Shown here piece by piece: positions 5,924 through 31,584 of a DNA stretch of 33,515 bases. The notes beneath the pieces were generated by a model. That model was given only the letters and a program-made list of their open reading frames with translations. It was not told the DNA's origin and did no database searches. The position numbers and the translations under genes were made by a program. The stretch spans positions 1 through 33,515 of the IMG/VR virus record IMGVR_UViG_3300043570_002292; one strand, 5' to 3'. This DNA comes from a virus. Numbering within the stretch: the stretch's first letter is position 1; each line of letters opens with the position of its first letter.

Positions 5924-5954
5924 AGGCCAGCAGCATCGTGCTGCTGGCCTTTTT
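5924..5954 (+). terminator. Intrinsic terminator after the L7/L12-like gene
   Basis: A perfect 12-bp stem (5924-5935 AGGCCAGCAGCA / 5939-5950 TGCTGCTGGCCT) with a 3-nt loop leads into TTTTT and a further CCTTTT. It is the strongest terminator in this part of the window. Confidence 0.9.
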
Positions 5955-5975
5955 CCTTTTCAAGGGGTACTTCAT

Positions 5976-6660: not shown

Positions 6661-6677
6661 ATCCTCAGGAGGAAATG

Positions 6678-6905: not shown

Positions 6906-6906
6906 T

Positions 6907-7917: not shown

Positions 7918-7938
7918 ACCAACGAGAGGAGACCTGAT

Positions 7939-8793
7939 ATGAATCTCAATGATCGAGCGATGATGGTGCAGCTGAACATCAGCCAGTGGACTGCACGGCG
8001 CTATGACCGCAAGGCCAGTGCCGAGATTACCGATGCCAACAATGCGACCCGTGATGCAGCACGGGTCAACAAGCTGCTGCTTCCCGGAGCAGACAGCCTC
8101 AAGGTCGTGCATCAGTACTCCACATGTGTTCGCCAGTTGGTCTACGACAACACGGCATCCTGTGGGATCGACGGGATGCAGATACTGGCTAACGCCAACT
8201 ACCTGTCATTCTCGGCCCAGTACCGCAAGGACAAGGCCGTGTGGGAACAGGCCGTGAACGAGTTCTGCGCTGAGTATCCGGCCCTTCGTGCTGCGGCACC
8301 GCGCAAGTTGCAGGGGCTGTACAACTCCAATGACTACCCCGAGGAGCATGAGATCCGCAACCTGTTCCGCATGGAGTTGGTCTTCTTCCCCATCCCCGAG
8401 GGCAAGAACATCAGGATCCCCGTCAGCAACGATGAACTGACCAAGATCCAGCAGCAAGTTGAGGATCGTGTGGACACGGCGGCCAAGGCTGCGATGCGTG
8501 ACGTATGGCAGCGACTGTTTGACAAGGTGCAGCACATTGCTGCCAAGTGCTCTGACCCGAGTGCCATCTTCCGGGACACCATGATCGAGAATGCCCGTGA
8601 GATTTGCGAGGTGTTACCAAGGCTCAACTTCATGGATGACCCGCAGTTGGAAGCGCTGCGGCTTGAGGTGGAGTCGCAGTTGCTGGTGCATCCTGACCGG
8701 CTCAGGACTGACCCTGTGCTGCGCAGTGACACGGCAGCCAAGGCACGAGAGATCATGGACAAGATGAACTCCATCATGGGAGGTGGGGCGTGA
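7939..8793 (+). CDS. MoxR-module middle protein, possibly DUF3150-like
   Basis: This 284-aa protein with SD GAGGAGA lies 21 nt after the ATPase. It is mostly alpha-helical. The first 45 residues carry a basic segment (ISQWTARRYDRKASAEITD) followed by KLLLPGADSLKVVHQYST. A coiled-coil-like region lies near residues 165-215 (TKIQQQVEDRVDTAAKAAM), and another near the C-terminus. Proteins of this size and type, annotated as DUF3150, occur between MoxR ATPases and VWA-metallopeptidase proteins in phages; I assign this from context and general resemblance, not from a diagnostic motif. It is probably the adaptor or scaffold of the module. The stop overlaps the GTG start of the next gene. Confidence 0.75.
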   Translation: MNLNDRAMMVQLNISQWTARRYDRKASAEITDANNATRDAARVNKLLLPGADSLKVVHQYSTCVRQLVYDNTASCGIDGMQILANANYLSFSAQYRKDKAVWEQAVNEFCAEYPALRAAAPRKLQGLYNSNDYPEEHEIRNLFRMELVFFPIPEGKNIRIPVSNDELTKIQQQVEDRVDTAAKAAMRDVWQRLFDKVQHIAAKCSDPSAIFRDTMIENAREICEVLPRLNFMDDPQLEALRLEVESQLLVHPDRLRTDPVLRSDTAAKAREIMDKMNSIMGGGA

Positions 8794-8984
8794 GCCCCCC
8801 TCTCTTGTCCGGTGATCCGACGCAGTACCACAAGTTCATCAGGTCGATGAGCGAGGATGCGTTCTTCAACTACATGCACATGTTGACGCTTGGTATGTAT
8901 TACCAAGGCAGGAACAGGGGATTCGTTTATGGATCTCTGTCCACTCTGACCGGCTCCCTTATCTTCTTCTACTTCTGGAGGTGA
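8790..8984 (+). CDS. Small putative membrane protein, 64 aa, GTG start
   Basis: The start GTG (8790) overlaps the upstream TGA (GTGA) and follows GGGAGGTGG, so the unusual start is well supported. The N-terminal half is polar with a short helix (YHKFIRSMSEDAFFNYMHML). The C-terminal 18 residues (YGSLSTLTGSLIFFYFW) are hydrophobic enough for one membrane span, ending in a single Arg. It sits inside the MoxR module. A membrane anchor or recruiter for the complex is possible; a holin is less likely because there is only one span and no lysis cluster nearby. The stop overlaps the SD region of the next gene (GGAGGTGA). Confidence 0.7.
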   Translation: MSPPLLSGDPTQYHKFIRSMSEDAFFNYMHMLTLGMYYQGRNRGFVYGSLSTLTGSLIFFYFWR

Positions 8985-8986
8985 CT

Positions 8987-10189
8987 ATGACCAGCCCAGC
9001 ACGCAAGCCCAAGGTGACCAAGCCTGTCGATGAGAAGGCCCTGATGACCCGCATCAGCAAAGCCAAGACGGGACTGGTTCTCAGCTATCCGTTCTTCGGC
9101 AGCATTGCCCTGAACATGGAGCACGGCCTGTCCCGTGCGTTCCCCACTGCTGCGACCAATGGCAAGTGGTGCATGTACAACCCGGAGTTCATCAACGAGT
9201 TGACCGACGAGGAGTTGCTGTTCCTTGTGACCCATGAGGTATGCCACCCCATGCTGGAGCATCCGTTCCGGCGCAATGGGCGTGACCCCAAGAAGTGGAA
9301 CAAGGCAGGCGACTACGTCATCAATCAGCTGCTCAAGGACGAGGGCATTGGCAAGATGCCTGACGGTGGCCTGCAGGACAAGGCCGTCTACGATTCAGGT
9401 GGCGGCACGACAGACGGTATCTACAACGTCTTGCAGGATGAGCCGAATGACGACGGCGATGAGCCGGGTGATGATGACGGCAACGGCAAGGGCAAGGGCA
9501 AGGGCAAGGGCAACGGTACGGCACTGGATGAGTGTCTGGATGCCGAGGGTAGCCCTGCCGAGGTGGCACAACAGGATGCCGAGTGGCGCATCCGTGTGGC
9601 TCAGGCAGCACAGGCTGCCAAGATGCAGGGCAAGTTGTCCGAGAGGCTCAAGACCTTTATTGATCAGGTGCTCAGTCCCAAGGTGGACTGGCGCAACGTG
9701 CTGCAACGCTTCATGCAGCGGGTCAAGACCAATGAGCGAACGTTCGCAAGGCCCAACCGTCGCTTCATCCAGCAGGGACTATACCTGCCATCCATTACCG
9801 GCGAGATGCTGGGAGAGCTTGTCGTGTTCATCGACTGTTCAGGTTCGGTAGGTGACGAGGACGTAGCCCAGTTCTCTGCCGAGCTTCACGTAATCAAGGA
9901 CGACATGAAGCCCAAGATTCTGCACGTTATCTACTTCACCAGTGAAGTGACGCACCATGACAAGTTCGGCCCCAATGACGACCTGACTGTGGCCCGCATG
10001 GGCAATGGCGGCACGGCGTTCAGCCCGTTGTTCAGGTATATCGACAAGGAGGACATCAGGCCCGTGGCCTGTGTTGTGTTGACTGACCTCGTCTGCGATG
10101 ACTTCGGCCCTGCACCGGACTACCCGGTGCTGTGGGTATCTACCCACGCAGACAAGGCTCCGTTCGGCGAAATCGTGATGATCAAGTGA
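8987..10189 (+). CDS. Metallopeptidase-VWA fusion protein (DUF2201-like)
   Basis: The start is ATG 8987 behind TGGAGGTG; a GTG at 8981 lies inside that SD. Residues 75-115 match the zincin-like N-terminal domain of DUF2201 proteins: THEVCH (HEXXH at 83-87), then MLEHPFRR, and W104-N-K-A-G-D109 with D109 as possible third ligand. A low-complexity linker (Asp-rich, then repeated Gly-Lys from GGCAAG repeats around 9484-9515) follows. The C-terminal half is a von Willebrand A domain: VVFIDCSGSV supplies the MIDAS DxSxS (D283, S285, S287), and GNGGTAF gives the MIDAS Thr. Length about 400 aa. With the MoxR ATPase and helical protein it forms a typical ATPase-adaptor-VWA set. Proteolytic activity is possible but unproven. 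Confidence 0.9.
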   Translation: MTSPARKPKVTKPVDEKALMTRISKAKTGLVLSYPFFGSIALNMEHGLSRAFPTAATNGKWCMYNPEFINELTDEELLFLVTHEVCHPMLEHPFRRNGRDPKKWNKAGDYVINQLLKDEGIGKMPDGGLQDKAVYDSGGGTTDGIYNVLQDEPNDDGDEPGDDDGNGKGKGKGKGNGTALDECLDAEGSPAEVAQQDAEWRIRVAQAAQAAKMQGKLSERLKTFIDQVLSPKVDWRNVLQRFMQRVKTNERTFARPNRRFIQQGLYLPSITGEMLGELVVFIDCSGSVGDEDVAQFSAELHVIKDDMKPKILHVIYFTSEVTHHDKFGPNDDLTVARMGNGGTAFSPLFRYIDKEDIRPVACVVLTDLVCDDFGPAPDYPVLWVSTHADKAPFGEIVMIK

Positions 10190-10197
10190 GGTGACCT

Positions 10198-10887
10198 ATG
10201 ACAGTTGTACGTATCAGTGATGACCTTATTTCAAACGTAAAGGCTAGCGCCCGCAATTCCCTTGCAGGCGTGAGGAACACTGCGCTGCAGCAGCTTCCTA
10301 CGTCTGTCATGGACGGTGTTTATGACAGGTCAATAGGTTTGCATGAAGCTGACATGAAGCGTCTTCCTAGCTGGATGTTCCAAACTTGGAACGGCATGGA
10401 CTTGGAAATCTTAGTTACCCCTCATGCAATCTCCGGCACAGGGCTTCCGTACCTCGCCGTAAAAAACTCCCAGACGGTTATGTTCTCCACTCCCCGGATC
10501 ATGCCGTCTCCTGAAGCATTATCAGGATCCAAGGGCAAGCTGTTGCGCAATGGCAACTATGGATCCGGGGTGAAGTACGTCCTGACAGCGGGCGATCCGT
10601 TTGACGAGGAGTTGCTTGCCTTGGCGAAGAACCGCAATGAGGGTATAGAGCGGGCAGACAAGATGATGAATGATCTGGCGGAGGGCCTTGGGTCTGTACT
10701 CAAGCAGTTCACTACTCTGGCTCCGGCACTGAAGGCTTGCCCTGCATTGTGGGATTTCCTGCCCGAGGAGATCAAGGCGAGGCACAAGACCATCAAGGAG
10801 AGACCCGCTGGCAACAAACCTGACCTGTCTGAAGTAGACACCAACCGCATCGTATCGCTCGCTGCGATTGCCAAGATGGTGAAATGA
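10198..10887 (+). CDS. Hypothetical protein, 229 aa
   Basis: SD GAGGTGA precedes ATG 10198, 8 nt after the VWA gene. The first 100 residues are mixed alpha-beta (VRISDDLISNVKASARNSL; GLPYLAVKNSQTVMFS). The middle is helical (EELLALAKNRNEGIERADK; LAEGLGSVLKQFTTLA), then a Pro/Lys-rich segment precedes a short C-terminal helix. No catalytic or metal motif was seen. The first 350 nt use more A/T-ending and rarer codons than the neighbouring MoxR genes. The protein could be an extra member of the module or an unrelated insertion. The stop overlaps the next ATG (ATGA). Confidence 0.8.
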   Translation: MTVVRISDDLISNVKASARNSLAGVRNTALQQLPTSVMDGVYDRSIGLHEADMKRLPSWMFQTWNGMDLEILVTPHAISGTGLPYLAVKNSQTVMFSTPRIMPSPEALSGSKGKLLRNGNYGSGVKYVLTAGDPFDEELLALAKNRNEGIERADKMMNDLAEGLGSVLKQFTTLAPALKACPALWDFLPEEIKARHKTIKERPAGNKPDLSEVDTNRIVSLAAIAKMVK

Positions 10888-11681
10888 TGTTAGCCAGTAA
10901 CTACACACCGTCGATTCCACAGTCAACTTCAAAGGTAGTATTGACCAGCTACAAGGCGGCCCGGGAGTTCATCTCCCGTGGCCGTCTGCCCTACTCTAGT
11001 AGCGACCCAAGGATTTGTAGGCCGGTTCGTTCATGGGGACTTCTCAGAGAATCAGATAACGACACTCTGACACTTAGCATCAGAGCGCATGATGATATCT
11101 TGCGGTTCCGTCCTGATAACACCATCGAGTTCATCATGCCAGAGCGCACTCTCTCATACTGTGCCATGACGATTGGCGACCCGTTCTACAAAGTATGTCG
11201 CGTTACATTTACCAACCGTGGTACTCACAAATATTCGGTAACTAGCAAGACTAAAGAGGTGCAGTACTATGAAGGTCTGGTCATGGACTGCGAGACTCGC
11301 GAGTTCACCAACGCAATAGTCGAGGTGGTCAACGAAGAGAAGCGTAAGGCGTATCTCAAGGCGATAAAAGACTATCGTTACATGCTGGCAGTGCGGGCAA
11401 AAATGGGTGTATACAACAGCACATGGCGAGACCCCGCCATATACAGTGTAGATTTGCCATACATGGTCAAGACAGTATTGACTAAAGACCTTACCAAGAT
11501 GCAATATCCGCCAGTACTGATCTCGTTCTTCCTGCATCACGGCGGGAGACATAAATCAAAAGATGTTGTCACAGGCTTTGACAAGATAATCAAAGCAGAA
11601 GACCGTACACTTAGGAGGGCATATGGAGTCTACGAACACAGAGCAGCAGATTCTTCGGGCACTGGAGTTGCTGCACCGTGA
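10884..11681 (+). CDS. Hypothetical protein, 265 aa
   Basis: The gene starts at ATG 10884 overlapping the previous stop; no clear SD, so coupling is likely. The protein is polar and basic with strand-rich segments (DTLTLSIRAHDDILRFRP; VCRVTFTNRGTHKYSVTS), a helical middle (EEKRKAYLKAIKDYRYMLAV) and a region with HHGGRHKS near residue 220. I find no known active site. Like the preceding gene it has a lower GC content and more ATA, AGA, AGG and CTA codons than the replication genes. Its last 59 nt are overlapped by the next small gene, which has its own strong SD. Function unknown. Confidence 0.8.
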   Translation: MMLASNYTPSIPQSTSKVVLTSYKAAREFISRGRLPYSSSDPRICRPVRSWGLLRESDNDTLTLSIRAHDDILRFRPDNTIEFIMPERTLSYCAMTIGDPFYKVCRVTFTNRGTHKYSVTSKTKEVQYYEGLVMDCETREFTNAIVEVVNEEKRKAYLKAIKDYRYMLAVRAKMGVYNSTWRDPAIYSVDLPYMVKTVLTKDLTKMQYPPVLISFFLHHGGRHKSKDVVTGFDKIIKAEDRTLRRAYGVYEHRAADSSGTGVAAP

Positions 11682-11805
11682 TGCTGTAGTTGCCGTGGGG
11701 GAGGAGTATCTCCCCCTTGGGCGTATCGCCCATGAAGCAGCAGCACATATCAGGTTCCTGCGGGAACGCATCAACGAGTTAGAGTCGTGGCGGTATGGCA
11801 GTTAA
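11623..11805 (+). CDS. Hypothetical protein, 60 aa, helical
   Basis: AGGAGG sits 5 nt before the ATG at 11623, inside the end of the previous gene; this perfect SD is the main argument that the overlap is real. The protein is a likely two-helix coiled coil (TEQQILRALELLHRDAVVAV and AAHIRFLRERINELESW). No known motif. It overlaps the following gene by 11 nt. Small helical proteins of this kind in phage early regions are often regulators or inhibitors, but the sequence does not show a target. Confidence 0.7.
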   Translation: MESTNTEQQILRALELLHRDAVVAVGEEYLPLGRIAHEAAAHIRFLRERINELESWRYGS

Positions 11806-11986
11806 GCCTGTACGCAAGCGACGATGCCACACTTGCAAGCAGGTGTTTGTTAACCCTGCTTCATGGATGAAACACTTTGGGGGTGGTGGTTCGTGCCACC
11901 CCGTCTCCAGCTTTGGCTTCTATGGTCTCGTCGTAAACAAAGCTGGTATTTGGAAAGTCATTACTAACAAGAGGAAAGATGTATGA
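11795..11986 (+). CDS. Small zinc-finger-like protein, 63 aa
   Basis: The start ATG 11795 lies within the end of the previous gene, after GGCGGT. The N-terminus is basic (KPVRKRRCHTCKQVF). C11 and C14 form a CxxC, followed by H27 and by C34-H35 in GGGGSCH, a possible C2H2/C2HC zinc site. Basic residues flank the finger and the tail is KVITNKRKD, suggesting nucleic acid binding. No established family was recognised. The TGA stop overlaps the ATG of the DUF3310 gene. Confidence 0.7.
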   Translation: MAVKPVRKRRCHTCKQVFVNPASWMKHFGGGGSCHPVSSFGFYGLVVNKAGIWKVITNKRKDV

Positions 11987-12363
11987 CCAAGAGAGAACAG
12001 ATCGAAAGAATGATCCGGGGGGGCCGCGATACTCAGATGATCATGAAGGCGGCCAAGGTATCTGCAGCGTATGTCTATGTCATCCGCAGCAACATGAAGA
12101 AGGCCATCTCGGTCAAGCTGCCCAAGGCATCGAGCATGACGTTGGAGAAAGTCGTTGAACGGCTGAACCCGGACACGGTCAACCATCCGCCGCACTACAC
12201 GGCTGGGAAGATCGAAGTCATCGACTTCATCGAAGACCAGAAGCTCTCGTACCATCTCGGCAACGTGGTGAAGTATGTCTGTCGTGCAGACCACAAGGGT
12301 TCGCGGCTTGAGGATCTCAAGAAGGCAGCGTGGTACCTGAACCGCGAGATTGCCAAGGGTTAA
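11983..12363 (+). CDS. DUF3310 (SaV-like) protein with N-terminal HTH
   Basis: Residues 67-126 carry the DUF3310 signature: NHPPHYTAGKIEVIDFIED, then HLGNVVKYVCRADHKG and LEDLKKAAWYLNREI. These proteins are common in phages and have been called nucleotide kinases, but the basis is weak and they lack a P-loop. The N-terminal 45 residues (REQIERMIRGGRDTQMIMKA then AAYVYVIRSNM) look like a helix-turn-helix, so the protein may bind DNA. Length 126 aa, usual for HTH-DUF3310 fusions. The start overlaps the upstream stop (ATGA). I am sure of the family but not its reaction. Confidence 0.85.
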   Translation: MTKREQIERMIRGGRDTQMIMKAAKVSAAYVYVIRSNMKKAISVKLPKASSMTLEKVVERLNPDTVNHPPHYTAGKIEVIDFIEDQKLSYHLGNVVKYVCRADHKGSRLEDLKKAAWYLNREIAKG

Positions 12364-12368
12364 CTCCC

Positions 12369-12716
12369 ATGAATGACCTAACGTCTCTGTCGCACAGAGA
12401 GATCCACGCTCGGATGCGGGACTTGGTGCGGATGATTGACGAGTTAGAGAAAGAGAACGACAGGCTTGAGCAGCAAGTCGAAATACTTCAAGCCAACATC
12501 CGCAACGGCATACCGGCTATGAAAGGTCTGATTGTCGATGCGCTGATGGCCCGCAAGCACAGTGTGGAATCCATCTCGGAGTTCACGGGCATCCGCAAGC
12601 ATACCGTGCGGCGCAGGTTGTTTGAACTCTGGAAGTTGGGCGTGATACGTAGGCGTGGCCCGTACCATATTGGTAGAGCTAACGCGATGTACTTTTACGG
12701 GAGGAAATTGCGATGA
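12369..12716 (+). CDS. Coiled-coil/winged-HTH regulator-like protein, 115 aa
   Basis: The start was taken at ATG 12369, 5 nt after the DUF3310 stop; a longer frame from 12330 would overlap it. Residues 8-45 form a charged coiled coil (RMRDLVRMIDELEKENDRLE). Residues 52-100 resemble a winged helix: VDALMARKHSVESISEFTG, RKHTVRRRLFELWKLG, then a basic wing (IRRRGPYHIG). A dimeric DNA-binding regulator is the most likely role; targets could include the symmetric motifs in the two large intergenic regions, which is inference. The stop overlaps the next ATG. Confidence 0.8.
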   Translation: MNDLTSLSHREIHARMRDLVRMIDELEKENDRLEQQVEILQANIRNGIPAMKGLIVDALMARKHSVESISEFTGIRKHTVRRRLFELWKLGVIRRRGPYHIGRANAMYFYGRKLR

Positions 12717-13012
12717 ACACACTCGACGAGATGTGGACGGTGCTGGAGGCGCATGAGCCTGCGCCTAAGTACGCCGAGGCGTGGGCGACCATGCTCCGCG
12801 AGCGGACAGCGTGGGCAGCGCGGGAAGCGGAGGATGCAGCAGACGCGGCGTGGGCAGCGGCAGAGGTAGCGCGGGCAGCGGCGGAGGCAGCGGAGGCGTG
12901 GGCAGCGGAGGAAGCGAGGCGGGAAGCGAGGCGGGAAGCAGCGCGGGCAGTGGCAGCGCGGGAAGTGGCAGCGCAGCGAGCCATCGACGCGATTCGGGAG
13001 GTGCAGCCATGA
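12713..13012 (+). CDS. Ala/Glu/Arg-rich repetitive helical protein, 99 aa
   Basis: The SD GAGGAAA precedes ATG 12713. After a short normal N-terminus (LDEMWTVLEAHEPAPKYAEA), residues 28-92 are built almost entirely of Ala, Glu, Arg and Trp (EARREARREAARAVAAREVA). They form a long amphipathic helix encoded by imperfect GCGGGAAGCG/GCAGCGG repeats. Slippage-prone repeats suggest variable length between strains. An alternative frame through the same DNA is open and encodes Gly/Ser repeats, a by-product of the composition. The stop overlaps the next start. Phage genes of this type are usually called hypothetical; a structural or binding helix is likely. Confidence 0.75.
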   Translation: MNTLDEMWTVLEAHEPAPKYAEAWATMLRERTAWAAREAEDAADAAWAAAEVARAAAEAAEAWAAEEARREARREAARAVAAREVAAQRAIDAIREVQP

Positions 13013-13407
13013 CACGCGACGAGATCGACACGCTTTGGAATCAGATGTTGCACCTGCCGGACGAACAGTTTACCCGCTACCGCTTCGCCGAACTGGTCGC
13101 CGCCGCCGAGCGTGAGGAGATTAAGCAGTTGCGAGCCGAGCGGAATACGGCGCAGGCTAGTTTGGCTAGCATCCAGATTGGATGGGAGAACTGGAGGGTT
13201 ACACATTCCACCGCGTTTAAGGATACTGAGATTCAGCGGCTGAGAGAGGAGATTGAGGCAGAGCGGGAGGCGTGCGCCACGGCTCGCGTTGCGATCGGCC
13301 ATCTGAAAGCCGTCTTGGCTGAGTGCGTCTATGACCACGTGCGCGCTGACACGGAGGCGCGGGACTGGCTGGTGAGCATCGGTGACGATGTGGAGGAAAA
13401 GAAATGA
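13009..13407 (+). CDS. MTRDEI-family hypothetical protein A, 132 aa
   Basis: The start is ATG 13009 overlapping the previous TGA, giving MTRDEIDTLWNQM. The open frame continues upstream to 12781 but only as Gly/Ser repeats in the shadow of the Ala-rich gene. Residues 24-35 (YRFAELVAAAER) are a module also present in the next gene. Downstream the protein is a coiled coil (IKQLRAERNTAQASL; IQRLREEIEAEREACATARV) and ends acidic and Lys-rich. The shared modules are nearly identical at the DNA level (13009-13026 and 13081-13103), evidence of recent duplication or recombination. Function unknown. Confidence 0.75.
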   Translation: MTRDEIDTLWNQMLHLPDEQFTRYRFAELVAAAEREEIKQLRAERNTAQASLASIQIGWENWRVTHSTAFKDTEIQRLREEIEAEREACATARVAIGHLKAVLAECVYDHVRADTEARDWLVSIGDDVEEKK

Positions 13408-13504
13408 CACGCGACGAGATCATCCGCATGGCGCGGGAGGCGGGGCTTGACGATTTCTTCTGCCGCGATTTAATGCTGGAACGCTTCGCCGAACTGGTCG
13501 CCGC
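13009..13504 (+). repeat. Direct repeats shared by the two MTRDEI genes
   Basis: Two blocks are duplicated exactly: ATGACACGCGACGAGATC at 13009-13026 and 13404-13421, and a 23-bp block beginning CGCTTCGCCGAACTGG at 13081-13103 and 13482-13504. The sequence between and beyond them differs. They mark a gene-module duplication and could serve as recombination points. Confidence 0.85.
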
Positions 13505-13601
13505 TGCCCAGTGTGAGAAGGACGCACAGGTATGCGAGGCAATCACATGGTCAAGCGAGGCGAGGTTTTTTGCCAAAGCTATTCGTGAGAGGAGTGAGTA
13601 A
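13404..13601 (+). CDS. MTRDEI-family hypothetical protein B, 65 aa
   Basis: GGAGG precedes ATG 13404, which overlaps the previous stop. The protein begins MTRDEIIRMAREAGLDDFF and contains LERFAELVAAAQCEKDAQVC, the compact form of the module found in the upstream gene. This form occurs widely as a small phage protein of unknown role. An 18-bp block (13404-13421) and a 23-bp block (13482-13504) are identical to the upstream paralogue. The TAATG junction with the polymerase gene suggests coupling. Confidence 0.75.
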   Translation: MTRDEIIRMAREAGLDDFFCRDLMLERFAELVAAAQCEKDAQVCEAITWSSEARFFAKAIRERSE

Positions 13602-15499
13602 TGGATCTGATCACCATAGATTTCGAGACGGCGTACGACAAGGAGTATTCACTCAGCAAGATGACGACTGAGGCATACATCCGTGACCGTAGGTTTGAGG
13701 TCATTGGTGTCGGGGTCAAGATCAACGATGGCCCCACTGACTGGTACAGTGGAAACAATCCCGGCAAGTTCCTAGGTTCACTGGACTACAGCAAGTATGC
13801 CGTGCTGTGTCACCACGCAGCGTTCGATGGTGCCATCCTGTCGTGGAAGTACGGCATCAAGCCCAAGCTATGGCTCGACACCCTGAGCATGGCAAGGCCG
13901 CTTCATTCGCAAGTCATGAGTTGCTCGCTCGCATCGCTGTCCAGCTTCTACGGGCTGGGTGAGAAGGGCACTGAAGTCATCAACGCATTGGGCAAATGGC
14001 GCAAGGACTTCACGCCACAGGAACTTGCCAAGTACGGAGAGTACTGCTGCAACGACGTCGAACTGACCTATGCCCTGTTCCAGAAGCTCAAGGGTAAGCT
14101 GGCAGTGAAAGAACTACTGGCCATCGACACTGTGCTGCGGATGTTCACTGAGCCAATGATCGTGCTGGATCAGTCATTGCTGGCCGATCATCTGGCCGAC
14201 GTACTGGAGCGCAAGGATGACCACCTGTCCCGCGTAGCCGCTGAGTTAGGTGTGGACAAGGCCAACGTACAGACGGCCCTGATGAGCACTGGCAAGTTTG
14301 CTGATCTACTGTACCGCTACGACGTAATCCCACCGGTCAAACTGAACTCTTCGGGGGAGCAGACTTACGCGTTTGCCAAAACAGATCAGGGTTTGCTCGA
14401 CTTGCTGGAACATCCTGAGGAGCGTGTGTCCTCACTGGTGGCTGCCCGTTTGGGAGTCAAGTCCACTATCGAAGAGACCCGGACGCGCAACCTGATCAAC
14501 GCATCAGAGCGCGGTGCCATGCCCGTCATGCTCAACAACTACGGAGCGCACACGACCCGCCTTACTGGCGGCGACGGGATGAACTTCCAGAACCTGCCAT
14601 CACGTGGCAACAACACCATACGACGTTCACTTACTGCGCCGGCTGGGCATACCATCATCGCTTGCGACTCCAGCCAGATCGAAGCCCGCACACTGGCGTG
14701 GCTTGCTGGGCAAGAGGATCTGGTCGATGCGTTCCGTGAAGGGCGGGATGTCTACTCGGAGTTTGCCACTGAGGTGTACGGCAAGACGATCACCAAGGCA
14801 GACAAGATCGAACGCTTTGTAGGCAAGACCTGCGTTCTCGGATTGGGGTACGGTCTCGGAGCAATCAAGTTGCAGAAGACCCTGAAGCTAGGCGCTGGTG
14901 GCGTAAGCGTGGATGTCACCATCGACGAGGCCAAGCGCATCGTGCAGATTTACCGTCGCAAGTACTGGAAGATCCCGCAACTGTGGAACGTGCTGTCCAA
15001 CACGATCAACCAGATGCTAGCAGATGGCGAGGGCAGTGTCGCTGGCGTGCTGAAGTACAAGGGCAAGACCATCGGGTTGTCCGGGTATCCATACATGACC
15101 TACCCGCTGCTGCGCCAGCCGTCCAACGCACTTAGTTCACTGCTCAACAACGTGCAGTATGTTTCAAAGCCCCGCGATTACAAGAAAGCCACCGCCGAAA
15201 AAGTATCTGGTGTGGTAGACCCGACGATCAACTGGGAAGTACTGTACGGTGGCAAGTTCACGGAGAACTGCATCCAGTATCTTGCTGCCATCATCAACCG
15301 CGAGTTCATGGTGGCCATCGCCCGCAAGTACAGGGTGATCTTGCAAGTCCACGACGAACTGGTTGTCTGCGTACCGGACGAGCAGGCCGACGAGGCCGAG
15401 CGGTACATGATCTCCGTCATGAACACGCCGCCTGTGTGGGCGAGCACGCTACCTGTGGCATGTGAATCAGGAAGGGGGAACAACTATGGAGACTGCTGA
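13601..15499 (+). CDS. polA: DNA polymerase family A with 3'-5' exonuclease
   Basis: This is the replicative phage DNA polymerase, 632 aa, with SD GGAG and ATG 13601. The N-terminal exonuclease has IDFETAY (D7, E9), HHAAFDGA and YCCNDVELT. The polymerase domain carries motif A DSSQIEAR (356-363), motif B RFVGKTCVLGLGYG (R405, K409, Y417) and motif C QVHDELVV (H584, D585, E586). There is no 5'-3' exonuclease domain. The residue matching E. coli Pol I Phe762 is Leu413; in phages the residue at this site has been linked to replication style, and it affects nucleotide discrimination. The motif A Glu is present. It heads the replication cluster of nucleases, helicase and primase. Confidence 0.97.
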   Translation: MDLITIDFETAYDKEYSLSKMTTEAYIRDRRFEVIGVGVKINDGPTDWYSGNNPGKFLGSLDYSKYAVLCHHAAFDGAILSWKYGIKPKLWLDTLSMARPLHSQVMSCSLASLSSFYGLGEKGTEVINALGKWRKDFTPQELAKYGEYCCNDVELTYALFQKLKGKLAVKELLAIDTVLRMFTEPMIVLDQSLLADHLADVLERKDDHLSRVAAELGVDKANVQTALMSTGKFADLLYRYDVIPPVKLNSSGEQTYAFAKTDQGLLDLLEHPEERVSSLVAARLGVKSTIEETRTRNLINASERGAMPVMLNNYGAHTTRLTGGDGMNFQNLPSRGNNTIRRSLTAPAGHTIIACDSSQIEARTLAWLAGQEDLVDAFREGRDVYSEFATEVYGKTITKADKIERFVGKTCVLGLGYGLGAIKLQKTLKLGAGGVSVDVTIDEAKRIVQIYRRKYWKIPQLWNVLSNTINQMLADGEGSVAGVLKYKGKTIGLSGYPYMTYPLLRQPSNALSSLLNNVQYVSKPRDYKKATAEKVSGVVDPTINWEVLYGGKFTENCIQYLAAIINREFMVAIARKYRVILQVHDELVVCVPDEQADEAERYMISVMNTPPVWASTLPVACESGRGNNYGDC

Positions 15500-22797: not shown

Positions 22798-25700
22798 CTA
22801 CTCCCCTTCCATTCCGTCCGGAGCGAGGATGTCCAAGGTACGTTGTGCCTCGGCTCTGGCGGATATCGGGAGGGTACGCAGGAACCTATCTCCAGCAGGA
22901 CGACGGGCTTCGCGAAGCGCACGTTGTGCGTTCTTGGTGAAGTTGGAAATCTCCAGCCCAGTGCCCTCAGTGTCTTCGTTCCACTGCTCAACCAATTCCC
23001 GGACCTCCTGAACTTTCTCGGAGTCCTGAGCCAGCGAAGCAGCAACGTACTTTCCGTAGAACTCAGCAGCAATGTCCTTGCGGTAGTTCGACACGCGGGT
23101 CAACACGGCAATACCCGCGTTTGCGCTGGACGCCGCTTCCGGATAGAAGCCCAGTGCCCGGGCCAGATACGTCCCGGCGTGCAAGTTCTTGCTGACAACG
23201 TAACCCTTCTGGTTGACGATGGTTCCGGTGTCGTAGTACGTCGCGATGTCCGCGCCAGCGCGCAGCATGGTGACCGGTGACGTACGCAGGATCGACGTCA
23301 GCGAAGTCTTGTCCTCGACAACTCCGACAGTCTCCAGACCGTAGCGAGCGACGTCGAACCCCGTGGCAAGAGATTGCTGGATGAACGAACCGACTGGACC
23401 AGTGACCTCCATCAACTCCCGGAAGCCAGAAGTGTTACCGACGAGACCGATGCCGCTACCCGGGACGATATTGCCCAGACCCACGCGATCCGCCACGTTT
23501 CCGGGTGTCAGGTAGTTGAGTGCGCCGCGCAACAAGATGGGCGACAGGCCGGGAACCAGTGCATCGACGGTCTCCGCAATGGTCTTCTCCATGCTGCCAC
23601 GCCAGAGTGCTGACGGCCCCAACCCGAGTCGTTGCGCGATGGTGTCGATGAGGTCGAAGATGTCCTCTGCGAATGGCAAGTTCTTGAGACCGGCAAACAA
23701 AACAAGCAGGCCAAGTGCCAGCAACTTCTGGTCACGAGGCAGTGCCTTGAGCAACTGCACCGTGTTCACCACAAACATCTTGTACATGAAGGCGAACTGG
23801 GCAACGCCACCACGGAAAAGCGCAGGGCGGTTGAACATGGCGTACTCACCGAGCGTGTTCTCGATCATATCGACCGCGAACTTGTCCGCTTCGATGAATG
23901 CCTGCTCGTCGCTTTTGTTAGCGCCCTTGGCCCGGTCGTATGCCATGCGGAACGCAGCCAGACCCGTCGCACGCCTAGCAGCCTGTTCTGTGTAGTTGAA
24001 CATGCCCATGATGGCTCTGGCTCCAGTCTGCGCATAGCCAGAAGTCATGCGACCACGGGCAGATCCAAGCATGGAGTTGGTCAGTGCTGCCTGCATGGTC
24101 CCTTCGGAAACTTCTTTGCGCAGGAAGTCAGCTTCCGCCCGGGTGAGCCCGAGGGCTGCAAGGTTCTGAGCAATGGCCTCCGGCGAGCGCTTGTTTTCCT
24201 CTGTACCCAGCAGCTTGTCCCAGTAAGCCAGATCACTCTGGTTAATCCCTGACGTCTGGCGCAGCGCACGCGTCATTTCGCGGGCTGTACGACCGAGACC
24301 GAACCCGCCACCAAACCCGTTCTTGGGGTTGTACCCGGCCAGTGCCGGGAGCACGTTAAGAGGTAGCGAGAAGTAGTTGAGTATTGCTGTAGCTGGTGAG
24401 AGACCCATGAACGCATAGGTCGTGAAGAGCCGCAGCTTAGAGCCGAGTTCGCCTGAACCGAAATCCGTGAACTCCACACTGCGCTGGGCGTTGAGGAACT
24501 CGATCATCCGCTGGCCGCGATCCTTGTAGAGGTTGGCCTTCTTGGCTGACTCATTTACCACGAATGTAAAGTGGTAGGCTTCAAACTCCTTCCTCGCAGC
24601 ACTACGTTGTGGATCATTGAGCATCGGGTTCTTGATCGCTGCATCTCGCGCAGCCTTGAGCCGGTCGTACTCGGCCTGACTACCAGACCAAAGTTCGTTG
24701 GACTCTTCCGACTTGTCGTAGAGACGGTCGATGAAGTGCTGGTTCTCTTTGCGTGCCACCACGCTGGCCACTGACTCAAGGTGGCCAGAGACATACTTGA
24801 TGGTGTTGGGATCTTCACCCGGGTTGCCGCTGCGCTGCAGCCGCTTGCGGGCACTAGCATCCTGCTGGGTCAAACCAACGACGAGACGTTCACGCTCTGA
24901 AGGATGCAGGGCAATGCTGAACTTGTTGAGCACACGGACAACATCATTCAGGTTGATGGGGCCTGCGTTGTCGTCGGTCTGGCGTGCAGTCTCAGCCACT
25001 ACCTTGAACTTGACCTTCATGACCCCGAACTTGCGGTCGTCCCCCAGCACCTCGGCATCGAACGTGGTATCACCGAAGAGCGTTTCTATTTCCCCAGCAT
25101 AGGCTTCGGCCTCAGACCGGAGTTCCGTCTGGATGAAGATCATCTGGTTGCGATACTGCTGGGAGAGTTCCCGGATATCGCCGGTATTGGGATCCGTTGC
25201 CACGATGCGAACCTGCCACTTGCCGTCTCGGCCCAGCGGGACGTACCCACCAGCAATGCTGTTTGCAGCATAAAGCTCGGCGTTGCGACGGCTAAGTTCA
25301 AACAGCGCCAAGTTCTGGATTGCCTGCTGCATGGAGAACTTTTCCCCCTCGTCGCGACGAATGCGGGAACCAGCCTTCAAGGCTTCAATCCCGTCCACCA
25401 CTGACTTCTGGTCATCAGCCTCAAAGAACGCTTTGGCAAACGGATCGTTGAGATCCGTGTCCAGACCCAGCACCGCTTGGTTGAACTGCGCCATGAACTT
25501 GTTGGCTTCGATCAGGCTCTCGCTACTCTGAATAGTGGTGCCGTCTTCCCGAACTATGGGATTCTCATCACGGATCGTGAGGTAACGGTCTTCGATGCGC
25601 TCAAGGAAAGTCCGGTTCTCGTTGGTCAAGGGACGCCCAAGGAAGCGTGCAGCAATCTGCAAAATGTTGTCACGCTCTGCGCGTGCAGCCGCGTAGTTGG

Positions 25701-28700
25701 CCAGCAGCATGTCAATGGCCGACCGGTCCATGGTGTCACGGACTTCGTTGTACATCTGCCATTCTTTGCTGTTTTCCGTCAAGCCCGGCATTGTCTGCTC
25801 AGAGTAGGTCTTCTCGGCCAGATACGTCGGCGCTTCGATACGCGCCTTGTAGCCTTTAGCCTTGGCCTTCTTCTTGTCCTTGACCTTGGCAAGGTACCGC
25901 TCTGCACGAGTCTTCTCATCACCAGTGGTTCCGAGCACGGCATTCTCGGCTTGGAAGATTTCAGCATCCATCGCAGCCAGTTCAGTATCGCGCTCGCCTT
26001 CAAGACGCGTGCGCTCCTGAGCCGTCATTGTTGCGGGCTCACGCACTGTGTACTTGATGCCACGGCGGAAGTCTTCGATGGTGAACCTGCCCATGGCCTT
26101 GAGGCGGGCAAACACTTCCGGACTGAGTATGGCGCGTCCATCTACGATGCGGATGAGATTCCCGATCTCGCGCAGCTGGTCGTCGGTTAGCGCCCCATGC
26201 TTGGCCCGGGTCGTGGTTCGCAGCATCCGCGAAGTCGTGGCAGTCTGCTCTTCGGTTGCACCACCGCCAAAAGTCCTACCAAGCATTTCGGTAGCCGGAG
26301 TCAGCACCGTTTCCATCATCGCGTTGTATTCGGCACGCAGCTTGGCAGCCCGGTGATTGGTATCACGGACGATCTCGTACAACCGGCGGAAACCACGGTT
26401 TTCACGGGAAGCAAAGTTTATGGTCTGCAGGTTCTCGACAACCGTGTTGTAGAGTTCCTTGAAGTCAATGCCTGCAGCTTTTGCTTTTCGCGTGAACTCC
26501 GAGTAGTTCAAGTCCCGGCGGGGAGCGTTGAGCACGGCATCAGCCACGGACCCATTGAACTGTCCGAACGATTCGCTGTTGATAGCGTAGCGGCCCGAAC
26601 CCATCGGATCCTGCATGCCTTCGTAGTCGCTCATCTCCATAGCCATCTTGGCAGGATCGAAGAACGAGCCGGATGTTCCCCCGTTCTTGACGTACCGGCG
26701 GGCCTGCGCCACGACGTACCGGGCCATGTCGTCATCGAACCGGACACCGATCTTGTTGAGCGCATCCTTGATGCGGCTCCACAGGCGTGCCAGCAGGTTG
26801 TTGTCCAGCGTACCAGCCAGATCCGCGAGGTACTCTTCTGTGGCCACCGTCCTGCTGATGGATTCACCGAGGCTCTTGCGGACAGCCATGGTCATGTCCA
26901 CCCCGGCGCGAACCTTGGCGCTGGAGTTGTAGACCATGTTCATCACGTTGGCTAGCTCACGCTCGCTCATGATTCCCCGGAAGCCGAAGTGGCCGAGGGT
27001 TTCATGGGCAAGGACGAACTTCAGCTGGCGCTCTGTTGCCACGCGATCAGTGAAGATGATGACCTGTCCATCACCGAACGAGTAGCCCACTGCCGATACC
27101 GTGTCGAAGTCGCCCTGCGGACGCGCAGCAACGGCCTGCTCGTAAAGACGGGGGTTCTTGGCTTTGAGGTCTGCGACGTTGGCGTACAGGTGGACGGTCG
27201 GCTTATTGACAAGCTTGCGCAGGAAGTTGGCTACGGCAATACGGATCTTGCCCACTGCCATGGGACCAGTCAGCGGACGCCCATCGTCAAGGAAATTCTT
27301 GCCGAAAGTGTTCCAGCCTTCCAGCGTGCTGCGCAATCTGGGTGGATCCCCCGGACCCGGTTTCCTTTGCTTGTCCCTGATGAGGTTAGCTTCAGCAATA
27401 TTTTCCTGTGTTTTAGCACGGCGAGCCCGATCTTCGGTGTCCGTAGAAGTTTCAGTAGACACGCGCAGGATCTTGTCAATGACCTGAATCTTCGGCTCGC
27501 CTTTGTCGTTGAAGAAGTCCGAGAGTTCCGTTTTTTTATTGACAGCATAGTCCCGCTGGTTCTTTGGAACCTTCGCGTAAAGGTCACGGAGCTTGACAAT
27601 GACTTGCTGGATCTGGTTTGTCGAACTCTCTCCCGTGTTGCCGTTGATGACGCGGATCTGGTTAACCAGTCGCTCGGCTTCACTAGCCCTAGCTTCAATG
27701 ATCTCTGTACGCGCTGGTGCTGCAACGGTTACACCTGCCGCCTGCAGTTCATCACGCAACTGCTTCTGCAGTGTGGGCGCAAGGTTGCTGACCGACAACA
27801 TCCCAGCCTTGACGTACTGAACCGCGCTTTCTGCCGGGAGGCCGATGAGCACCGACCGAATATTCGGTAGCTGCCCCCGTGCTTCTAGGTAAGTAAACCA
27901 CGCTTGCGGACGCTTGTTGGAGTACACCTCCAACCTGCCCAGCGCGTTGACCTCTTCGATCAACCTTTGATCTATGACCTCACGCTGCTGCTCGGTGAAC
28001 GCCGTGTCTTCTACGTATCTACGGGCTTCAAGAACCAGAGGTTTGTTGCCCTTGGACTCGTCGGTCAGGTACGCAAGGTTGACCAGCATCTCTGCATAGT
28101 CAGAGAACGCATCGAGAGTCCCACTTGTTCGCTTGGCCTCGGCACCAGCCACTGCAAACTCAAGCATTTCGACGTTGTCCATCTCCAACGCACCGTCATT
28201 TACGGCGTCGATGATGTTGTCGAGTTCAGGAGCAGTCTTGTTGGACTCAGCCCATGCGGCCTTGGCGGAAGCAGGCAGACTGGCATAACGGACATCATCG
28301 TCCGCAGCTATGTTGTTCCACTTGGTTTCGTCAGACTCCTGCGTCAGATCCTCCTTGGCTTTTTCGGCTTCAGCGGCAAGCTGTTCTTTGGACTTGGCAC
28401 GCGCCAACGCCACAATGCGATCAAACGCTTTTATGGACTTGTCGGACTGCTCCCACCTGTCCTTAAGATCCTGTGACAGGTCTGCATACTGAGGGTCCGT
28501 AGCTTCGGCGTTGTCAGCCCACACTTCCTCGGCGGCTACCGCCGCCTCACCTTTTGGGGCGGGGGGCGCTCCACGCTTTGCTGGTGCAATTTCCAGCGTG
28601 TCAGCAACCGAGGGGCCACGTTCACTGAAGACGGCTACACGCCACGCTTCTTGCTGGGTGTCAGTCAGATCCCCCCACTTACCTTGTTCGCCGGTATTCG

Positions 28701-31584
28701 CGTATGTGCTCCACTGATTACCGGCTTGTTTCAACTGTCCACGGCGAACCAGTTCATTTACCGAAACAGGCGCTTGCTTTTGAACAGTCGGCTTGGGCGC
28801 TTGCTCTTGGCCTTTGCGGAGGGCTTCGCCCTTTCGGGCAGTGGCTGGCTGGGCGGGTACTTCTGTTCCCACTTCTTCGCTAGCTCGGGCTGGTTTGCGT
28901 GCAGGTACTTTCTCTGCGCTTCGCTTTTGAACGGCACGAGCTTCTCCTTTCCTGAGTTTCTCGGCTGCCTTGGCAGCCCTCTCTGCAGTCTTGCGTGCTT
29001 CTTCCGCAGCTTTGGCATCTGCCTCGGCCTGAGCCCGGGCTTCTTCCGCAGCCTTGGCGTCGGCCTGCGCCTTCCTCTGCAGCTTGGCAATGTTCTGCCG
29101 CATTTTATCGGCAGAAACAGACGGAGCCTGCCGTACAGTGAGGTCTTCGACTGGAGCGCCGACAGGCTGGCGCGTACCCGCACCCCTGAGAGCGGCCATC
29201 GTCGCATTACCAGCGCTGGTAAAAAATCCCGTCTGGCCAACGTCTGGAGGGGATTCTGGCGGAAGCTGCTTGAGACGAGCGTCGATCTCGCGCAGTCGCA
29301 CCCGTGCATCACGGACGTTCTTGGACATCCGCCTCCTGCCCTTGGCCTGATCAATGGCGCGGATCAACCCGGCGCGTTCATCGACCAGAGCAACACGCTC
29401 GGCAACCTGTTCCTCCATGGTCTCCGGAAGAGGAGCAGCACCACGGCGCAGCGGTCCTACGTACGGGGGAGGCGGGCCGAACATCTCGGCCTGCTGTGGA
29501 CCAGCAAAGAAATCACTCTGCGAGATGGGCGTCTGCGGCGTAACTGGAGCCGCAGCGGTTTGAGGAGGCCGGATACTCGATGACGATGTCAACGGCAACG
29601 GCCTGATCAACGGCAACTCGCCTTGTACCTGCGGTAGAGGACGCAGCCCAAACGGAAGCTCGCCCTGCCCTTCAGGGACTACCTGCGGAGCAGGAGCAGG
29701 CGCGACCGGCGCAGCCGGGGGCTGCATACGCTGACCGATTTCGCCCGTAGTGACAGGCTGCCCACCGAAGATGTTTAGCACACCCTGTTGCCCCGGATAG
29801 GTCGGGGGGATGTCTTCCATCACATCAACGACAACGTCATCCGTAGTGGCAGGCCGCGTGTTGCCAGCCGAGTCAACCACAAAACCGGGGCGATTGCGGA
29901 TTGCCATGACCCCACCCGGAGGCGGGAGCATGGGCGGGCCAGAAGGGATAGCAGGCCCTACGAACTCGCCGGTAAAGAAATCTCCCTGTTGCGGACGCGG
30001 CCCCAAAGGGCTAGGGCTAGTCGGGGTGGGGGGTCCAACCTGTATTGGAGCAGGAGGTCCGACGAAAGGCGGCGGTCCGCCAAACAAATCCCCCTGAGTA
30101 CCCGGTGCAGCACCAGAGGGGACCCTTGGGGGAGCGCTGGGGGGAAGGTCAAACATCCCCGGGGTCATGGGCGTCGGCTCAGTAGTCTGGGCGGGATTGA
30201 GCAAGTTGGCAGGATCGCGACCACGCGAGGCAAGGCCACCGAGACCGCCCAACGGACCACCGACACCAAAGCCTGCGGCAAACGAGTTGACGAGGCGGTT
30301 GATGCCCTCAGGGGAATCCCAGTCAACCTGTTGGTTGACGCCCAGCAGGATGCCTTCCTGCCCAGCTTCGGTGGCACCTTCGGTCACACCACCAATGGCA
30401 ATGCCCGCGACAACGCGACGGGTCAGTGGACCAGCACCAGCTGCCCTGAGAGGCAGCCCCCGTCCGCTTGCAGCCTTGATGACCTGACTGGCAACGCCAA
30501 ACTCGAAGAGATTCTCCAGCGCGGCGTATGGAATGCCCAGTACGGCAGCAGTAGCGCGATCCGGATCACCCCCTTCGATGGTCTCGCCGTAGATATCAGC
30601 AACACCAGTGGCGTAGCCTTGAGCAGCAAGACCGACACCCGCACCACGCGTGCGGGCAGCACCCAGAGATGCCTGCAAAGCCGTCTGGGCAGCGCCGATG
30701 TTCTGGGTACCGAGCGCCAGAGTATTCTGGATCTGGGCAGCAGCCGTGACGCCAGATGCTTCGTGCAGGATCTTGATCTCAGCCGGATTCAGCTTCTCAC
30801 CAGCGGCATACTTCTTGGCCGCGCTCATGATGGACTGCTGGGTAGCCGGAGTAGTCATCCGATTACTGAGCGTGCGGAACGCCGCAGACCGGGCAAGCGC
30901 ACCACCAGCAGCCGCACCGGCACCGCCAGACAACGCGGAAAGCAGGAGATTCGGACCCTGCTGCGCAAGGTTGCCGACGAACCAGTCGAGCACGCCCCGG
31001 TTGGGCTCACCGATATCGGTGAACGCACGCTCGTAGGGGGAGGTCTTGCGGAGATCCTCCTCCTGCGCTGCAACAACTCCTGCGCCCGTCTCTTCGGCAC
31101 CGAGGAACTGAAGCCCCCGCCCTGCGAGCATTTGCGTAACGTCAACGCCACGCCCGAAATTCTTGGACGCAAGTCTCCCCATCGACGGATTGCGGATGGC
31201 AGCCGTGTACTGCCCGTAGGCATTTGCGTCAAGCGGCTCCCAGTCTCCACCAGTGGGGAGTCCGACACCCGGCTGATTAAGGAGGGACTCAGCATCAAGC
31301 GCCTGCTGGTCATCGTCAGCGTCAAACGTAATGCCCTGCACATACATCTGATTGCGCGATTTGCTGAACGCAACGCTAGGCGGCTTGACCATCTTTGGCA
31401 TCGTGAACTGGGAGCCAGAGGTAAGGCTCTCACCAAGCGCCACCATGTCGGCTGACGACCCACGCAAGTTGTCGATGCCCATGCCAGATGTAGGACTGTA
31501 GGGCGCGTAGGGATTTGGCCTGTCACCCAGATCCATCTTTTCAAGAGTGGTGCTGGCGAACGGGTTGGGGGTAAGACCGGCCAT
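22798..31584 (-). CDS. Giant 2928-aa virion/ejection (polyvalent-type) protein with HEXXH domain
   Basis: The reading frame is uninterrupted for 8.8 kb. In order: Gly/Ala-rich hydrophobic stretches that could touch membranes (about 208-230, 392-418, 433-456); a Pro/Gly-rich linker (470-675); an Ala/Glu/Lys coiled coil (831-890); a zincin-like domain with VLAHETLGHFG (H1527, E1528, H1531) and E1583-E1584 in ATEEYLADLAG, a gluzincin-type third ligand; long helical regions; then a C-terminal part with NRPALFRGGVAQF (near 2581) resembling the PLxRFG region of large phage polyvalent proteins and a hydrophobic helix LLALGLLVLFAGL (near 2616). Such proteins are usually packaged and injected with DNA. 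It is next to the transglycosylase protein, as the T7 internal virion proteins are. Specific substrate unknown. Confidence 0.85.
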   Translation of the reverse strand: MAGLTPNPFASTTLEKMDLGDRPNPYAPYSPTSGMGIDNLRGSSADMVALGESLTSGSQFTMPKMVKPPSVAFSKSRNQMYVQGITFDADDDQQALDAESLLNQPGVGLPTGGDWEPLDANAYGQYTAAIRNPSMGRLASKNFGRGVDVTQMLAGRGLQFLGAEETGAGVVAAQEEDLRKTSPYERAFTDIGEPNRGVLDWFVGNLAQQGPNLLLSALSGGAGAAAGGALARSAAFRTLSNRMTTPATQQSIMSAAKKYAAGEKLNPAEIKILHEASGVTAAAQIQNTLALGTQNIGAAQTALQASLGAARTRGAGVGLAAQGYATGVADIYGETIEGGDPDRATAAVLGIPYAALENLFEFGVASQVIKAASGRGLPLRAAGAGPLTRRVVAGIAIGGVTEGATEAGQEGILLGVNQQVDWDSPEGINRLVNSFAAGFGVGGPLGGLGGLASRGRDPANLLNPAQTTEPTPMTPGMFDLPPSAPPRVPSGAAPGTQGDLFGGPPPFVGPPAPIQVGPPTPTSPSPLGPRPQQGDFFTGEFVGPAIPSGPPMLPPPGGVMAIRNRPGFVVDSAGNTRPATTDDVVVDVMEDIPPTYPGQQGVLNIFGGQPVTTGEIGQRMQPPAAPVAPAPAPQVVPEGQGELPFGLRPLPQVQGELPLIRPLPLTSSSSIRPPQTAAAPVTPQTPISQSDFFAGPQQAEMFGPPPPYVGPLRRGAAPLPETMEEQVAERVALVDERAGLIRAIDQAKGRRRMSKNVRDARVRLREIDARLKQLPPESPPDVGQTGFFTSAGNATMAALRGAGTRQPVGAPVEDLTVRQAPSVSADKMRQNIAKLQRKAQADAKAAEEARAQAEADAKAAEEARKTAERAAKAAEKLRKGEARAVQKRSAEKVPARKPARASEEVGTEVPAQPATARKGEALRKGQEQAPKPTVQKQAPVSVNELVRRGQLKQAGNQWSTYANTGEQGKWGDLTDTQQEAWRVAVFSERGPSVADTLEIAPAKRGAPPAPKGEAAVAAEEVWADNAEATDPQYADLSQDLKDRWEQSDKSIKAFDRIVALARAKSKEQLAAEAEKAKEDLTQESDETKWNNIAADDDVRYASLPASAKAAWAESNKTAPELDNIIDAVNDGALEMDNVEMLEFAVAGAEAKRTSGTLDAFSDYAEMLVNLAYLTDESKGNKPLVLEARRYVEDTAFTEQQREVIDQRLIEEVNALGRLEVYSNKRPQAWFTYLEARGQLPNIRSVLIGLPAESAVQYVKAGMLSVSNLAPTLQKQLRDELQAAGVTVAAPARTEIIEARASEAERLVNQIRVINGNTGESSTNQIQQVIVKLRDLYAKVPKNQRDYAVNKKTELSDFFNDKGEPKIQVIDKILRVSTETSTDTEDRARRAKTQENIAEANLIRDKQRKPGPGDPPRLRSTLEGWNTFGKNFLDDGRPLTGPMAVGKIRIAVANFLRKLVNKPTVHLYANVADLKAKNPRLYEQAVAARPQGDFDTVSAVGYSFGDGQVIIFTDRVATERQLKFVLAHETLGHFGFRGIMSERELANVMNMVYNSSAKVRAGVDMTMAVRKSLGESISRTVATEEYLADLAGTLDNNLLARLWSRIKDALNKIGVRFDDDMARYVVAQARRYVKNGGTSGSFFDPAKMAMEMSDYEGMQDPMGSGRYAINSESFGQFNGSVADAVLNAPRRDLNYSEFTRKAKAAGIDFKELYNTVVENLQTINFASRENRGFRRLYEIVRDTNHRAAKLRAEYNAMMETVLTPATEMLGRTFGGGATEEQTATTSRMLRTTTRAKHGALTDDQLREIGNLIRIVDGRAILSPEVFARLKAMGRFTIEDFRRGIKYTVREPATMTAQERTRLEGERDTELAAMDAEIFQAENAVLGTTGDEKTRAERYLAKVKDKKKAKAKGYKARIEAPTYLAEKTYSEQTMPGLTENSKEWQMYNEVRDTMDRSAIDMLLANYAAARAERDNILQIAARFLGRPLTNENRTFLERIEDRYLTIRDENPIVREDGTTIQSSESLIEANKFMAQFNQAVLGLDTDLNDPFAKAFFEADDQKSVVDGIEALKAGSRIRRDEGEKFSMQQAIQNLALFELSRRNAELYAANSIAGGYVPLGRDGKWQVRIVATDPNTGDIRELSQQYRNQMIFIQTELRSEAEAYAGEIETLFGDTTFDAEVLGDDRKFGVMKVKFKVVAETARQTDDNAGPINLNDVVRVLNKFSIALHPSERERLVVGLTQQDASARKRLQRSGNPGEDPNTIKYVSGHLESVASVVARKENQHFIDRLYDKSEESNELWSGSQAEYDRLKAARDAAIKNPMLNDPQRSAARKEFEAYHFTFVVNESAKKANLYKDRGQRMIEFLNAQRSVEFTDFGSGELGSKLRLFTTYAFMGLSPATAILNYFSLPLNVLPALAGYNPKNGFGGGFGLGRTAREMTRALRQTSGINQSDLAYWDKLLGTEENKRSPEAIAQNLAALGLTRAEADFLRKEVSEGTMQAALTNSMLGSARGRMTSGYAQTGARAIMGMFNYTEQAARRATGLAAFRMAYDRAKGANKSDEQAFIEADKFAVDMIENTLGEYAMFNRPALFRGGVAQFAFMYKMFVVNTVQLLKALPRDQKLLALGLLVLFAGLKNLPFAEDIFDLIDTIAQRLGLGPSALWRGSMEKTIAETVDALVPGLSPILLRGALNYLTPGNVADRVGLGNIVPGSGIGLVGNTSGFRELMEVTGPVGSFIQQSLATGFDVARYGLETVGVVEDKTSLTSILRTSPVTMLRAGADIATYYDTGTIVNQKGYVVSKNLHAGTYLARALGFYPEAASSANAGIAVLTRVSNYRKDIAAEFYGKYVAASLAQDSEKVQEVRELVEQWNEDTEGTGLEISNFTKNAQRALREARRPAGDRFLRTLPISARAEAQRTLDILAPDGMEGE

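Follow-up and report, generated by a model that had tools for sequence, protein, structure and literature searches.

A giant, probably ejection-type viral protein with a conserved HEXXXH metallopeptidase-like domain and putative clamp-binding motifs in its linker

The giant gene and its neighbours

The stretch of DNA that we analysed (hereafter the window) is a viral sequence record, 33,515 bases long, that carries no completeness estimate. A giant open reading frame of 2928 aa (22798..31584) lies on its minus strand, with its ATG at 31584, one base past the stop codon of its upstream neighbour (..CAATAGTATGGCC..). The original prediction had described this frame without giving its strand, and the extent is borne out: there is a single ATG-started frame. 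Taken as a whole, that prediction was right about the frame and about its composition, while its spelling of the peptidase motif (HEXXH) and its PLxRFG end had to be revised (see below). The Gly-rich hydrophobic and Pro-rich stretches that it mentioned are visible in the composition, together with Ala/Lys/Arg-rich ones; the coiled coil that it proposed is plausible at residues 831-900, on the grounds of composition only. The features of the two genes are collected in Table 1.

Table 1. Features of the giant gene and of its upstream partner (positions in the window)
Feature	Position	Strand	Remarks
Upstream partner gene, 642 aa	31586..33514	-	SLT transglycosylase domain, residues 235-325
N-terminal block, residues 1-450	30235..31584	-	Gly/Ala-rich; moderate conservation (33% mean pairwise identity)
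Pro-rich linker, residues 451-830	29095..30234	-	Hypervariable; bears clamp-binding-like motifs
QGDLF, residues 497-501	30082..30096	-	Clamp-binding-like
QGDFF, residues 533-537	29974..29988	-	Weaker variant
QSDFF, residues 689-693	29506..29520	-	Weaker variant
QAEMF, residues 698-702	29479..29493	-	Best clamp-binding-like motif of the window
QTGFF, residues 784-788	29221..29235	-	Apparent orthologue of the relatives' Q-Phi-x-[LM]-F-T site
MPTase-like domain, residues 1445-1640	26665..27252	-	From conservation and the AlphaFold2 model
HETLGH (HEXXXH), residues 1527-1532	26989..27006	-	Predicted zinc ligands H1527 and H1532; predicted base E1528
E1583-E1584	26833..26838	-	E1584 invariant, predicted third zinc ligand
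PLGRDG, residues 2116-2121	25222..25239	-	Degenerate PLxRFG motif
NF032893 tail-700 (PLxRFG) domain, residues 2353-2887	22924..24528	-	147.6 bits (curated cut-off 100)
Hydrophobic TM-like segment, residues 2621-2639	23668..23724	-	9 of 15 other scanned full-length relatives have a counterpart

Conservation is very uneven along the protein. Pairwise comparison of 16 full-length proteins gives a mean identity of 53% over residues 1445-1640, which form the best-conserved part, and of 18-41% elsewhere: 41% in the C-terminal block, 35% at residues 2091-2330, 33% at the N-terminus, 24% at residues 1650-2090, and 18-29% in the regions between those blocks, where 43-59% of the positions are unpaired. 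The Gly/Ala-rich N-terminal block is possibly a membrane-active region. One of these full-length relatives (alignment A3) has a MORN-repeat match (E 1.6e-10), which suggests the gain of a module.

Of the 54 viral relatives whose sequence extends upstream of the giant gene, 48 have an SLT transglycosylase gene directly before it, and 2 further ones have it before split or frameshifted copies. In one locus (L037, 6247-14133) the giant gene is seemingly broken into several frames, by frameshifts or sequencing errors. In a relative whose TerL is 82% identical, matches to head-tail adaptor/portal, tail-fibre and internal virion proteins precede the SLT and giant genes in the late stretch. By analogy with T7 (PMC8954989), these two genes would fill the place of the ejection proteins in a podovirus-like genome; with T7 gp16 itself no homology was detected. 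That the giant protein is of the ejection type appears to us very likely, and it is probably injected with the viral DNA, with which its gene slot and its SLT neighbour are consistent. Elsewhere in the window (8981-10189 and 6739-7917, both on the plus strand) lie a DUF2201 metallopeptidase/VWA protein, whose HEXXH (THEVCHP) is a true one, and, near it, a MoxR-like AAA ATPase with a clamp-binding-like motif, QNILF, at its very C-terminus.

The PLxRFG-like end announced by the original prediction needs correction. A domain homologous to the NCBIfam tail-700 family is indeed present near the C-terminus and scores above the curated cut-off (Table 1), but the giant protein lacks the literal PLxRFG motif; its aligned counterpart, PLGRDG, which resembles the context of PLSRFG in phage F116, is degenerate and does not stand at the end. 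In a profile comparison (hhalign 99.7%, E 6e-26) the C-terminus aligns with those of prophage proteins, and part of it matches the LPD38 region, the prophage homologues bearing LPD38, ddrB-ParB, ART-PolyVal, MuF_C and PBECR1. An AlphaFold2 model of residues 1700-2890 (pLDDT 81.5) is mostly helical, and a fold search against the PDB with this model gave no significant match. The further toxin, peptidase or anti-defence domains that had been suggested in the long unrecognised stretches found no support: residues 450-1430 are a hypervariable linker, and no second enzyme appeared in Pfam (E up to 1), PHROG, PADLOC, PDB sequence or fold searches, so that hidden domains of these kinds were dropped. 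The window protein has one enzyme-like domain and its homologues have more. Because this MPTase is the only enzyme domain recognised, the protein is "polyvalent" by homology rather than by content, as far as its sequence can be read.

The HEXXXH domain

The original prediction read a HEXXH signature with H1527, E1528 and H1531. There is no HEXXH anywhere in the protein, and the sole related motif is HETLGH: the first two residues stand as proposed, residue 1531 is a Gly and the second His is residue 1532, which led us to drop the HEXXH reading. The proposed downstream glutamates are both present; among 64 sequences E1584 never varies, and E1583 is kept in at least 90%. In the alignment of these 64 sequences six residues are invariant, namely H1527, E1528, G1531, H1532, G1534 and E1584 (A2 positions 93, 94, 97, 98, 100 and 150). 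Relatives were collected with a domain query (12 viral loci) and with an alignment query, which gave at least 80 viral loci (80 out of a total of 114) and 21 genome loci, of which a good number lie in Betaproteobacteria; a pattern search with the whole protein returned none. HEXXXH reappears, along with its surroundings, in 84 of 85 listed loci, and hence, on this comparison of sequences, the motif of the giant protein is not due to chance. The sole locus without it, L115, was set aside, as it encodes an unrelated secreted-type protein with HEXXH. The Pfam M48 profile reaches 25 of the 64 members (best E 0.0028) and stays below the cut-off for the window member.

We modelled residues 1435-1645 with AlphaFold2 and the 64 sequences (pLDDT 92.3, pTM 0.87). 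In the model HEXXXH lies within helix 84-104 and the two glutamates within helix 144-161; the predicted order (helix, strands, HEXXXH helix, Glu helix) agrees with a minimal zincin. A fold search against the PDB with this model gave no match at E 0.001, and anthrax lethal factor, MATCAP and PepO appeared only at noise level (E 2.5-3, best 50 matches). Among viral models (BFVD) there were 13 matches at E<=0.001, mainly polyvalent proteins. The region may have the zincin fold that the original prediction called for: the order of its elements and the mainly polyvalent viral matches agree with it, while no PDB zincin is significant among the best 50 matches. HEXXXH MPTases in phage polyvalent proteins were already described in 2017 (Iyer, Burroughs, Aravind; PMC5512222), and the class of the protease is therefore a known one. 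A conserved metallopeptidase-like domain in a giant protein of the genome-delivered type is well supported, which is what the original prediction had in mind, although its motif is of the HEXXXH kind known from that work. From sequence and model together, we predict that the domain is likely to be a working zinc peptidase.

Motifs of the linker

Bacterial clamp-binding sequences follow the consensus QPhi-x-[L/M]-[F/L] (PMC11139829; see also PMC4549789). This type of motif was first noticed in the linker of the window protein and then tested in relatives, the expected counts being taken from locally shuffled linker sequence. When three-residue gapped patterns were scanned without bias in 40 non-redundant linkers, Q..LF came out on top (47 against 2.8 expected). 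In the same linkers Q..[LM]F occurs 65 times against 4.2 expected, the maximum of 200 shuffles being 11, the canonical QPhi-x-[LM]-F 39 times against 1.4, and QLxLF 18 times against about 0.2 (0.22). Controls (reversed motif, E for Q, N or K for Q, A for F) were at or below expectation; the control with Q one place further off was raised (10 against 1.3), in part owing to the QQ that stands before many sites. The counts are not independent and are partly inflated by shared ancestry, since the sequences are related; the occurrences span 25 distinct sequence contexts. At two orthologous sites Q, [LM] and F are constant and P, S, D, E or A stands at position 3, where the clamp motif tolerates variation (PMC11139829).

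In the other open reading frames of these loci, 92,949 residues in all, there are 7 matches, 4 of which fall in the split-off N-terminal half of the giant gene of L082 (see below), and the motif is at chance level in prophage polyvalent proteins, Rollin, F116, 8P and N4 gp50. Most relatives have several such motifs in their flexible linker. Strict Q..[LM]F is missing from 18 of 53 linkers, and L042, L048, L083 and L084 are among the relatives without it. For this reason, a role of the motifs as MPTase cleavage sites or as packaging signals is disfavoured. No phage-encoded clamp (DnaN domain) was found in the 9 records searched.

In the window itself, the linker holds five Q..[LMIF]F against 0.21 expected, a number reached by none of 5,000 shuffles, and only two of the strict form Q..[LM]F (p 0.007). 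These copies are weaker than those of the relatives, with G or A at position 2 and, in three of them, F at position 4. Hexameric forms of the motif (2 against 0.39, p about 0.06) are not claimed as enriched. QAEMF follows the pattern QPhi-x-[LM]-[FL] in flexible sequence and can be compared with QADMF of Pol III alpha (PMC11139829). At the level of the family, it is a serious possibility, somewhat short of probable, that the linker binds the beta clamp; for the window protein's own weaker motifs we put the same possibility slightly lower.

Proposed mechanism and comparison with known systems

The open reading frame, the conservation of motif and family, the predicted fold, the gene order and the enrichment of motifs were computed here, and from them we propose the following. 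A podovirus-like phage would make a giant ejection-type (polyvalent) protein late, package it and inject it with its DNA, alongside a separate peptidoglycan-cutting protein, the neighbouring transglycosylase, which would open the wall. The Gly/Ala-rich N-terminus and the hydrophobic C-terminal segment would aid membrane crossing. In the HEXXXH domain, H1527, H1532 and E1584 would bind zinc and E1528 would serve as base; the domain would be a processing protease, whose most likely substrate is the protein's own long linker or a phage partner. Once in the cell, the linker motifs are predicted to capture the host beta clamp, either recruiting it to phage DNA or withholding it from the host. We lean towards this proposal as a whole (an injected giant ejection-type protein with a zinc processing protease and a clamp-capturing linker). 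Its boldest form, in which a virion-delivered array of motifs would seize the host DnaN clamp at the first moments of infection and the built-in HEXXXH protease may free the array after entry, is put forward more tentatively.

Whether the protease processes phage proteins, itself included, rather than cleaving host ones seems to us evenly balanced. In favour of processing we counted two points: no other part of the protein is as well conserved as the MPTase, and L082 has a two-gene form (2894-14266). There the giant gene appears as two open reading frames of 863 aa and 1897 aa (stop to stop), about 3.1 kb apart, and the break falls in the linker upstream of the MPTase, separating an N-terminal part from the MPTase and C-terminal part; the gap holds at least 2 other frames, one of which (542 aa) resembles a Synechococcus phage protein (69%), and the second piece has its own ATG behind an AAGGGG sequence. 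This may be a natural two-polypeptide form or a misassembly, as it comes from a single metagenome contig. Against processing counts the fact that the N4 vRNAP, which also bears an MPTase, is packaged unprocessed (PMC5512222). A host-directed effector, cutting a bacterial protein (of defence or replication, for example) after injection, is one of the options given for polyvalent MPTases in PMC5512222. We consider it rather improbable here: host-facing effectors are often expected to be variable, whereas this domain is the most conserved region, and it stands at a fixed place between the linker and the C-terminal block. Still less probable is a catalytically dead structural module. The lack of a significant match to a solved zincin fold speaks for it, but HEXXXH and the second Glu are kept across divergent viral and prophage proteins, which is unexpected for a dead site, and the relative Rollin keeps the site as HEXXH.

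The protein could also be an ordinary polyvalent or ejection protein, processed by its MPTase, in which the linker motifs serve as packaging or partner-docking signals in the virion and have nothing to do with the host clamp. This would agree with Iyer et al. 2017, who describe HEXXXH MPTases and propose self-processing (PMC5512222), and with the fact that the protein bearing the Q..[LM]F sites is of a phage structural type, some of these sites lying in long shared contexts (such as Q-Phi-x-[LM]-F-T-x-x-G-x-P). On the other hand, the 18 relatives without the motif keep the MPTase, which makes a general packaging or cleavage role unlikely, and the residue preferences agree with the clamp consensus at each position. 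We therefore regard this explanation as unlikely. The protease is a further member of a described class, and what would be new is the array of linker motifs; PMC5512222 makes no mention of clamp-like motifs, and in the open-access literature we found no paper tying virion proteins to clamp motifs, though such work could still exist. If the array binds, an injected structural protein would thereby reach the host replication clamp at the stage of entry, which differs from the way of Twort gp168, the one phage clamp inhibitor named in the review PMC11139829, which targets the DNA channel.

Among known systems, the polyvalent-protein MPTases (PMC5512222) share the HEXXXH, the following Glu helix, the setting in a giant phage protein and the homologues with LPD38, ddrB-ParB, ART, MuF_C and PBECR1; the window protein differs in having no second recognisable enzyme domain. 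The NF032893 tail-700 proteins (for example Pseudomonas phage F116 gp60 and the giant protein of phage 8P) have in common with it the C-terminal 540-aa domain above the curated cut-off, but F116 and 8P carry HEXXH sites of their own and no clamp-like motifs, and the PLxRFG motif of the window protein is degenerate; F116 gp60 (L015) has two HEXXH sites (HELQH and HEMIH, residues 183 and 379) and an intact PLSRFG. The 2184-aa protein of Pseudomonas phage Rollin (TerL 46% identical) occupies the same late slot and has a homologous MPTase (hhalign 97.9%, E 3.4e-13). Its motif is HEMGH, a HEXXH with one residue fewer between the histidines, where hhalign places a one-residue gap; a search confirmed no HEXXH relatives of Rollin, and the tree puts it on a long, unreliable branch. 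The two proteins form a natural pair for the question of how an extra residue between zinc ligands is tolerated. The annotation of the Rollin protein (L116, OR577172, 15452-22006) as oligopeptide ABC transporter (OppA) is probably wrong.

The N4 virion RNA polymerase gp50 is also a giant injected MPTase protein at the end of the late genes, while the window protein has no T7-like RNAP module (no such Pfam or PHROG match); kinship was dropped as the profile comparison was not significant (E 0.046 for the MPTase, E 0.15 for the C-terminus). T7 gp16 and other podovirus ejection proteins are alike in their late slot, in a nearby transglycosylase and in a mostly helical C-terminus with a hydrophobic segment; the difference is that the transglycosylase of the window is a separate gene, and no homology to these proteins was detected. 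The M49 family (DPP III) is defined by HEXXGH and a second motif EEXR(K)AE(D) (PMC5667867). HETLGH agrees with HEXXGH, its Gly is invariant, and the two glutamates lie about 51 residues downstream; membership was dropped, as EEYLAD lacks the R/K of the second motif and no M49 structure is among the listed sequence or fold matches, and the resemblance is probably convergent. Finally, the ligands of the beta clamp (QL[S/D]LF; transposases, Pol III alpha, Hda) share QPhi-x-[LM]-F in flexible sequence with the linkers described here, which differ from them by the presence of several putative copies in one virion-type protein.
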